Below the pieces are notes generated by a model. That model worked only from the letters and a program-made list of their open reading frames with translations, made no database searches and was not told the origin of the DNA. A stretch of DNA of 64,000 nt from Natronosporangium hydrolyticum (GTDB lineage Bacteria > Actinomycetota > Actinomycetes > Mycobacteriales > Micromonosporaceae): NCBI RefSeq assembly GCF_016925615.1, contig NZ_CP070499.1:3534001-3598000 (forward strand). The letters run 5' to 3'. The position numbers were made by a program, and so were the translations under genes. Shown piece by piece: positions 19,351-51,520 of this stretch; positions within the stretch are counted from its first letter, which is position 1; each line of letters begins with the position of its first letter.

Positions 19351-20208
19351 TTAGGTACTGCGGGCGAGTTCCCAGCAGGCGACCGCCGCCGCGGCGGCGA
19401 CGTTCAGCGAGTCGACACCGCCCTGCATCGGGATCGCCACCCGGCGGTCGGCCACCGCCAACGCCGCCGCGGACAGCCCTGCCCCCTCCGCGCCGAGCAG
19501 CAGCGCCGGCCGAGCCCGGTCGGCGGTCGTGAGCCGGTCCAGCGGCACCGCATCAGCGGCCGGGGTCAGCGCCAACACGGTGAACCCGGCCTGCGCAACC
19601 CGCGCCAGCCCCGCCGGCCACGGTTCGAGCCGCGCATACGGAACGGCGAAGACCTCGCCCATGCTCACCCGGACACTGCGGCGGTAGAGCGGGTCCGCGC
19701 AGGACGGCGACAGCAGCACCGCGTCGGCGCCCAGCCCGGCCACGCTACGGAAGATAGCCCCAAGGTTGGTGTGGTTGTTGATGTCTTCACAGACCACCAC
19801 CCGGCGGGCGGTAGCGAGCAGCTCCGCCACCTCCGGCAGCGGTCGGCGATGGAACGAAGCCAGCACGCCACGGTGGACATGGAAGCCGGTGGTGTGCTGC
19901 AGCACCTCAGGGGAGGCCGCATACACCGGGGCGCCCGGCAGCTGCGGTGCCAGCGCGGCGGCCCGGTCCCGCTCGATCAGGTACGACCGCGGCGCAAACC
20001 CGGCCCGCAGCGCGCGCCGCAGCACCAGCTCGCCTTCGGCGATGAACAGCCCGTGCGGCGGTTCCCACTGGGTCCGCAGCGCCACATCGGTCAACGCCCG
20101 ATAGTCCGCTAACCGGGCGTCGTCCGGATCGGTCACCGGCACCACACCGACGGCGGAGGCTGGAGATGCGGCCGCATCTCCAGCCTCGTCCAGACCGGTC
20201 CGGGTCAA
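19351..20208 (-). CDS. TrmH/SpoU family RNA methyltransferase
   Basis: A 285-residue SPOUT methyltransferase. An N-terminal substrate-binding domain (GLFIAEGELVLRRAL) is followed by the knotted SAM domain with motif 1 (VVCEDINNHTNLGAIFRSVAG), motif 2 (LLLGAEGAGLS) and motif 3 (IPMQGGVDSLNVAAAAAV). It 2'-O-methylates rRNA or tRNA. The longest start is a TTG overlapping the SPFH stop (TTGA at 20205-20208); GTG codons at about residues 22-25 fit homologues better and are an alternative. Downstream member of the NfeD-SPFH operon. Confidence 0.92.
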   Translation of the reverse strand: MTRTGLDEAGDAAASPASAVGVVPVTDPDDARLADYRALTDVALRTQWEPPHGLFIAEGELVLRRALRAGFAPRSYLIERDRAAALAPQLPGAPVYAASPEVLQHTTGFHVHRGVLASFHRRPLPEVAELLATARRVVVCEDINNHTNLGAIFRSVAGLGADAVLLSPSCADPLYRRSVRVSMGEVFAVPYARLEPWPAGLARVAQAGFTVLALTPAADAVPLDRLTTADRARPALLLGAEGAGLSAAALAVADRRVAIPMQGGVDSLNVAAAAAVACWELARST

Positions 20209-50529: not shown

Positions 50530-51043
50530 GCTGGCTGATCGGGACGCTTGATCATCATGCATCGCCGCACCTCAGGTGGTGCGGCAGCAGCGTTTGCTCT
50601 GCGCATCTATACGCCAGCGCTGGTCATTCGAGAAGGGCTGGGCCAGCGAGAATACGCGGGGAGCGCCGCCGAGCTGCCTCCCCTCCCGCCGGCTGACCGC
50701 TCCGGCCTCCTGCCGCCGCCTGACCACCGCCGGGGACCGCCGGCGACCGCCGGGGACGGAAGTTTGCCCCAGGTCACGGACTTTGTAGCAGGCCAGCTTG
50801 CGCCCGTCGGTCGCTTGGTGGGTTGAGTGGTGATCCACTACGGCGACAAATCGCCTTAAACTGGCAAACCAGGCACCACTCAACCCACCAAGTCGAGCGA
50901 GACGAGCTGCCCGGACCCGACCTTGCGGCGATCCCTACCGAAACAGCCCAGCCGATGGCGTATGCGTAAGCAGCGCAAACGCTCCCGCAGCACCACCTGA
51001 GCTGCGGCGATGCCTGATGATCAAGTGACCCGATCCAGCCAGC
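50530..51043. repeat. 514-bp element bounded by imperfect inverted repeats
   Basis: The left arm (about 50530-50615) and the right arm (about 50960-51043) are inverted copies of about 85 bp, matching at roughly four in five positions by eye. Shared words are CTTGATCATCA, GCATCGCCGCA, CTCAGGTGGTGC, GAGCGTTTGC-like and ATACGCC. No transposase is encoded inside. It looks like a non-autonomous element (MITE-like) or a degenerate inverted duplication. Confidence 0.6.
50814..50892. repeat. Nested 19-bp perfect stem with two inner hairpins
   Basis: CTTGGTGGGTTGAGTGGTG (50814-50832) pairs exactly with 50874-50892. The 41-base interior holds GGCGA-CAAA-TCGCC (50842-50855) and CTGG-CAAA-CCAG (50861-50872), giving a three-way-junction-like shape with two identical CAAA loops. 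It could be a structured RNA, or a recombination or terminator element. Confidence 0.6.
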
Positions 51044-51105
51044 GGAGTCGCATGCGTCCCGCGGTCTCACGGCCGGGTTGGGGGTATCGAGCTGAAGATC
51101 CAAAG

Positions 51106-51148
51106 CCCGGGAGCTGTACGACACGCGGCGAGCCGTACAGCTCCCGGG
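51106..51148. terminator. 15-bp perfect hairpin
   Basis: CCCGGGAGCTGTACG (51106-51120) pairs perfectly with 51134-51148 around a 13-base loop; no T-run. No gene ends nearby, so it may end a non-coding transcript. Confidence 0.4.
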
Positions 51149-51520
51149 TAGTTGATCAACTCAGGATGGCGCCCGGAACGACCTGCGCCGATACGCGAGT
51201 CGGCGGTTGGACCGGCAGCCCAGCGGCCAGATCCCCCGGCCGATGGCGAGGGCGGCCTGCTTGCTGCTCCGTCTGTGCTCGCAGCTCTCGTAGGCCACGG
51301 CGTAGCTGCCTCTGCCTGCCAAGCGGCGACTCGGCTGGAGCCCAGTGTGTCGACCATGGCCTTCCGCGACCGACCCGAAGTACGCTTTGCCCGTGGCTTA
51401 GGCATGGCTTAGGCGTGGCGTGGCGTGGCTGGTTCGGGCGGGCCGCGGAGCCGTCCGGTCGCGGCGACCGGCCACCCGGCACCCCCGCGACCAGGCTGGC
51501 GACCGGAGGGAGCGGGGTAC

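Follow-up and report, generated by a model that had tools for sequence, protein, structure and literature searches.

Mosaic islands of dispersed palindromic repeats in Natronosporangium hydrolyticum and their probable link to putative DUF559 nuclease genes

MITEs (Correia, RUP and similar elements) are short, non-coding, multi-copy sequences with inverted ends. In the REP-RAYT/BIME systems (PMC2817692, PMC3733652), a gene lies between two palindromes, solitary copies occupy intergenic spaces that are mostly convergent or tandem, copies join into mosaic clusters, stems change in a complementary manner, and each gene family is paired with its own repeats. The REP palindrome measures 20-40 bp and carries a GTAG/CGTC tag at one end, and the partner protein, RAYT, is a Y1/HUH transposase (TnpA-REP). 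REPs of the CGTC type have also been described without a dedicated transposase (PMC3733652). Among the EDxHD homing endonucleases, I-Bth0305I combines several domains in an extended architecture and its target spans nearly 60 bp (PMC3943268), and the antitoxin regulator AbiEi binds inverted repeats located in its own promoter (PMC7319586). Here we compare with these systems a group of palindromic repeats that accompany genes of the Pfam entry DUF559, whose function is unknown.

The window, i.e., the whole stretch of 64 kb that was analysed, belongs to a genome (G000) assembled as one 5.70-Mb contig (C1) that starts with dnaA; two other genomes, G001 and G002, are of the same genus. The original prediction had placed at 50530-51043 a gene-free element with inverted arms of about 85 bp, matching at about four positions in five. 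Both features were recovered, since our own gene calling found no gene inside, and 50530-50623 aligns with the inverted copy of 50948-51043 at 83.3% over 96 columns (blastn, E 1e-19). An inverted-repeat search delimited the arms as 50537-50619 and 50953-51035 (83 nt, 83% complementary, spacing of 333 nt). Their local score was 60; in a sample of 3000 pairs drawn at random from the window with this geometry, the top scores were 44 and 42, from pairs that possibly overlap the arms themselves, and then 21. The 514 nt folded at -302.5 kcal/mol versus -213.3 +/- 7.2 in 100 shuffles (z -12.5).

Dispersed palindromic repeats make up this mosaic island, in which the modules follow one another as A-B-A-C-F. 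The left arm (50530-50623, minus strand) is a module A with its model core at 50547-50615, of a subtype preceded, by eye, by ACCAGCGC. It is followed by a linker (50624-50813, plus strand), which over its initial ~105 nt shows 68-72% similarity to a segment present in four other islands (L009, L011, L018 and L024), and by module B (50814-50892, plus strand), an 80-bp imperfect palindrome with a perfect stem of 19 bp formed by 50814-50832 and 50874-50892. The right arm (50948-51043, plus strand; model core 50957-51025) is a module A of the other subtype. Module C (51095-51158, no strand assigned) is a palindrome of 64 bp that carries GATC close to each end, and module F (51246-51299, minus strand) is one arm of a second long-inverted-repeat family, with no partner arm seen here. 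The genes next to the island are divergent, one on the minus strand and the other on the plus strand. Elsewhere in the window, a perfect palindrome of 32 nt (20156-20187), possibly a terminator, lies between two tandem genes.

The further copies anticipated by the original prediction were found: the interval has at least 101 matches in its own genome (the best 40 of 221 first-look candidates were scored), which excludes a single-copy region. Searches with models derived from 40 sequences of B, 14 of C and 24 of A, each scoring 150 candidates, located B in at least 59 distinct places, C in at least 26, and at least 39 matches of A. Of the 72 segments of 5 kb that we inspected, one is at dnaA and the other 71 surround repeats. 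According to our own gene calling, the islands lie between genes and form mosaics that reach ~1 kb; they overlap a weak gene call in 1/40 cases in one count and in 0/71 in another. Gene orientation around the 71 islands flanked by two genes was convergent in 35, tandem in 31 and divergent in 5, the window's island being among the latter. The corresponding figures for 203 gaps of at least 80 bp were 25, 118 and 60 (Fisher 8e-10 for the convergent excess), a rough baseline because these gaps were taken from the window itself and from the surroundings of DUF559 and mqnC genes, which for the most part belong to other genera. Close A pairs (two matches less than 900 bp apart) showed the same inverted arrangement in 10/10 places. 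By eye, the two ends are two subtypes, and the orientation of B relative to them was constant in a comparison of six islands, including two with a truncated arm. Some F members, e.g., L103 and L110, contain B. The A model gave no match in G001 and a single partial match in G002, and families A, D, E and F had no match in the loci that we searched from other genomes and around DUF559 genes.

Some of these islands have additional features. The long palindrome E, with the core GATCTTGCGTAC..GTACGCAAGATC, recurs inside islands L009, L011, L013, L017, L018 and L022. The F-B island L044 (2100-3150 of that locus, about G000:C1:542600-543650) has between its arms two tandem arrays with units of 21 bp and 13 bp, as counted by eye. 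Sites of the attC and Xer types were considered and dropped.

Palindromes of these families are also found in pairs around genes. A pair of C copies brackets a DUF559 gene located just upstream of the window (C1:3532352-3533338; 97% identity over 62 bp), a pair of B copies brackets another at C1:5.1366 Mb (97% over 90 bp), and a third repeat family brackets a third DUF559 gene of G000 (86% over 63 bp). Judged by sequence similarity, the B and C modules of the window are solo copies of the palindromes that bracket DUF559 genes at other places of the chromosome. Solo B copies are at most 81% like those at the partner gene (median 74%), so that this particular enzyme is not necessarily what moved the B of the window; the closest solo C is 92% like the C copies at its gene.

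To measure how general this arrangement is, the 600-bp flanks of each gene were compared with each other at E<=1e-4 or E<=1e-6. There are 20 DUF559 genes in the genus (7 matches in G000, 4 in G001 and 9 in G002), three of them with a flank too short for the test. Matching repeats were detected on both sides of 11 of the 17 testable genes at the 1e-4 cut and of 8 at the 1e-6 cut, versus 2/83 and 0/83 control genes, respectively (at 1e-4, 1/45 genes of the window and 1/38 other genes of the same loci), which gives Fisher values of 6e-9 and 1e-7. The 11 cases include weaker ones: the matches of L139, L147 and L153 are short (16-25 nt), the top match of L148 is a non-palindromic duplication with the palindrome in second place, and that of L152 is partial. 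The flanking repeats are gene-specific and most of them are palindromes of about 45-90 bp, whose two copies are not always inverted. GATC is present in 15/19 palindromes versus 4.0 expected by mononucleotide shuffling (maximum of 10 in 500 shuffles). The repeat of L139 (2342-2392, 3383-3402 and 4727-4754 of that locus) has a third copy past the neighbouring gene.

At least one DUF559 match exists in 46/61 genomes of the family; the 61 genomes gave 150 matches, of which 138 belong to other genera. Among 40 loci of other genera chosen down that list, 6 were flank-matched, one of them (L219) by a 19-nt match that may be due to chance, and the controls gave 2/66. The best DUF559 match of each genome gave 0/26 testable cases, i.e., 6/66 when combined with the chosen loci; in many of the 28 best-per-genome loci left out of the first 40, the DUF559 gene appears by eye to touch or overlap the following one. 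The clear cases in other genera include that of G003 (L206), where an identical 59-bp palindrome lies on both sides of the gene. Outside the family, 6/7 loci from a plasmid collection were matched (3/3 in Tsukamurella, 3/3 in Arthrobacter and 0/1 in Nonomuraea), versus 0/20 controls, several of these loci being in apparently chromosomal pieces; the same collection searched with the protein encoded by the C partner gene gave no match. The best DUF559 gene of many genera (L154-L183), which overlaps or abuts the next gene, possibly represents a separate, unflanked type. In Tsukamurella tyrosinosolvens NZ_LR134464.1 (L286), the palindrome-flanked DUF559 gene has the aspect of an insertion, on the strand opposite to both of its neighbours, the phosphoribosylaminoimidazolesuccinocarboxamide synthase gene and purB.

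All 16 proteins encoded by genes with matched flanks contain a DUF559 match, 14/16 an MTES_1575 match, 7/16 an AbiEi_4 match and 5/16 an AbiEi_1 match. Residues E227, D259, E270, R289 and G297 are invariant in the 16 proteins, and D272, H277 and D286 are nearly so. Compared with the PDB, their profile matched 3hrl, annotated as "Endonuclease-Like Protein" (1.6e-12), and more weakly (about 0.004-0.005 each) PvuRts1I, AbaSI and 3r3p, a "Mobile intron protein" that we take to be I-Bth0305I. The flanked genes are predicted to encode a Vsr-like / PD-(D/E)XK-type endonuclease, in some cases with AbiEi-type DNA-binding domains. A DUF559 protein of Caulobacter is likewise described as Vsr-like (PMC12907096).

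The dispersal of the four palindromes that we followed is nearly confined to their own genome. One palindrome of G002 has 5 solo copies in G002 and none in G000 or G001. The palindrome that brackets the DUF559 gene of G003 has 10 solo copies in that genome, none in G002 and one partial match of 31 bp in G000. Among 72,556 records, the Tsukamurella palindrome was found in 8, all of them from that one organism, and the Arthrobacter palindrome in 2, both from one strain; 6/7 solo copies of the former lie between convergent annotated genes. Regarding B, its model matched only G000 and G002 among 101 genomes of the family, under stricter filters and with the best 46 candidates per genome. An exact B pattern gave no match in a genome contig collection that may omit the own genome, and a degenerate one matched 4 contigs of one Micromonosporaceae MAG, plus one match each in Pseudovibrio and in a Lachnospiraceae MAG.

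When the palindromes differ, the stems tend to keep their pairing. The B stem reads CTTGGGGGGC.. / ..GCCCCCCAAG in G002 and mostly CTTGGTGGGT.. / ..ACCCACCAAG in G000, so that two pairs are changed on both sides in 6/6 G002 copies, to G-C and C-G from what is mostly T-A in G000. Changes on both sides were also found in 6/23 pairs of the C stem (14 sequences), and a T-A pair became C-G in 3/10 solo copies of G003. In the G003 and outside-family palindromes, the loops are variable and the stems are largely kept. A wobble of the B stem (U-A to U-G on one side) was discarded as a sign of RNA, as it rests on two columns.

The proteins and their palindromes also vary together. Protein and palindrome similarities of 19 genes, 16 with matched flanks and three with a palindrome on one side, were correlated in a Mantel test (Pearson 0.52, 0/5000 permutations; Spearman 0.21, 29/5000), and proteins that are related have related palindromes even when they come from different genomes (L141/L153, L117/L143 and L106/L133), as expected from a joint history. 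In addition, a B copy of G002 near a contig end adjoins a partial DUF559 protein whose identity with the B partner of G000 is 69% over 88 aa (next best 37%). As for the insertion site, the B-DUF559-B cassette of G000 lies between mqnC and menG (gene names from NCBIfam), which are 1415 bp apart. The mqnC locus was obtained from 30/41 genomes, and in the 29 others than G000 the spacing was 45-463 bp in 10 and 906-969 bp in 2, menG being outside the examined stretch in 17; a homologue of the B-flanked gene was found in the examined mqnC stretch of 0/29. In G004 (L260), a different DUF559 match lies just past menG and not in the mqnC-menG gap.

The explanation that we favour, and that we consider reasonably probable, is that a DUF559 protein acting with its own palindrome produces the dispersed copies and the mosaic islands. 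Each protein would recognise its own hairpin or palindrome and would cut or nick DNA there; the break and its repair could then seed new copies, mostly intergenic and at the 3' ends of genes. The gene with its two palindromes might also be movable as a unit, and insertions of different palindromes side by side, one after another, would generate mosaics like A-B-A-C-F. Nuclease activity and palindrome binding are inferred from the precedents found in the parts of the protein, and nuclease-driven dispersal from the pairing, the dispersal and the one apparent insertion. Several findings speak against this model: flank pairing is rare in the other genera of the family, the solo B copies differ from those at the partner gene, A, D, E and F had no match in the DUF559 loci searched, neither a target-site duplication nor an empty site of a solo copy was seen, menG was outside the examined stretch in 17/29 genomes, and G004 has another DUF559 match just past menG. 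Furthermore, terminators or operators that were dispersed in some other way could equally show a preference for convergent gene ends.

Operators and terminators are the main rival explanation, which we consider unlikely: the flanking palindromes would be autoregulatory binding sites and terminators, and the solo copies recruited regulatory hairpins that are not mobile. The AbiEi domains of some flanked proteins, the binding of AbiEi to inverted repeats in its own promoter and the frequent location of solo copies at convergent gene ends agree with it. However, a copy of the palindrome is also placed downstream of the gene, tens of solo copies stand at unrelated genes, each palindrome that we followed occurs almost exclusively in one genome, and a gene-palindrome cassette lies between mqnC and menG, all of which this explanation accommodates badly. 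A different possibility, which we judge improbable, is that the repeats are older and were spread by a transposase now lost, the DUF559 genes being passengers of the homing type that settle where they cut. The weak profile match to 3r3p points in this direction, as do the solo B copies, which far outnumber and differ from those at the gene, the lack of a partner gene for A and F in the loci searched, and the fact that most DUF559 genes tested in other genera have no matched palindromes; the finding that related proteins carry related palindromes, even between genomes, argues against it.

Of the two forms proposed in the original prediction, a MITE or a structured RNA, the first was sustained in part. 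The island does resemble non-autonomous mobile repeats, but no target-site duplication was seen by eye in the flanks, nor an empty site for a solo copy, several palindrome families are combined in it, and the palindromes matched by B and C enclose genes of DUF559 nucleases and not of a DDE transposase. An ordinary MITE, in which a lost DDE transposon would have had the A ends as its terminal inverted repeats and B and C would be unrelated passengers, could account for the inverted arrangement of all ten close A pairs. Yet among the at least 39 A matches of G000 there was no A pair around a gene, no autonomous transposon with A ends and no wider pair able to hold a transposase, and B and C do have DUF559 partners; we find this reading quite improbable. 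As to the RNA form, the changes that preserve the stems and the strong fold would suit a family of structured non-coding RNA genes, transcribed and folded as one long hairpin, but a search of the 64-kb window with Rfam at the gathering threshold gave 0 matches, and the modules occur singly and in many orders, so that we find such a gene family very improbable. Moreover, stem-preserving changes fit RNA and single-stranded DNA hairpins alike and do not tell the two apart. The pairing of the arms is not usable as evidence of RNA structure either, because the arms of the window are 83% alike and the right arm is 92-93% like the arms of other islands. The repeats may still have a role as RNA, e.g., as terminators.

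Returning to the nuclease-driven model, its resemblance to REP-RAYT/BIME systems is extensive. In both, a gene lies between two palindromes (here DUF559 genes, in 11/17 cases of the genus), solo copies are intergenic and mostly convergent or tandem, clusters are mosaic, stem changes are complementary and each gene family has its own repeats. In contrast, the DUF559 proteins are unrelated to RAYT. Y1_Tnp (PF01797) gave 0 matches in the own genome, while a control search was positive in 5/14 genomes, and a RAYT was therefore rejected as partner of the repeats. The palindromes also differ, those described here being about 45-90 bp long and often containing GATC, with no GTAG tags noted in an unsystematic look. 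The workings are thus like those of REP-RAYT, but the enzyme is unrelated, so that the system is not a member of that group. The flanked proteins share with EDxHD homing endonucleases a weak profile match, through 3r3p, but they are encoded by free-standing chromosomal genes bracketed by palindromes whose copies are dispersed. With the AbiEi antitoxin regulators, some of them share the AbiEi domains, although here the domain is joined to a nuclease domain. Finally, the island is short, non-coding and multi-copy like MITEs, with the A arms as terminal inverted repeats, but it is a composite of separate palindromes and no parent DDE transposon was found in its own genome.

The pairing of hairpins and nucleases suggests a kind of repeat-spreading system not described before in actinobacteria. 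In the open-access literature searched, no article that mentions DUF559 was about repeats, judging by titles and abstract openings, and none combining DUF559 and palindromes was judged relevant. As to whether DUF559 nucleases spreading their own hairpins would form in Actinomycetota a separate class of selfish systems, evolved independently of the HUH/RAYT route, we regard the arguments as evenly balanced. If so, REP-like repeats would have arisen more than once, with different enzymes. A dedicated nuclease partner could explain dispersed hairpins that lack a RAYT. If paired with a dedicated palindrome, at least the flanked members of DUF559 would gain a testable substrate, and the gene-specific nuclease-hairpin pairs would provide a natural collection of nucleases with specificity for sequence or structure.

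With respect to the location of the repeats in the chromosome, the dnaA-proximal half is richer in copies of the three families (38/59 for B, p 0.036; 18/26 for C; 27/39 for A).
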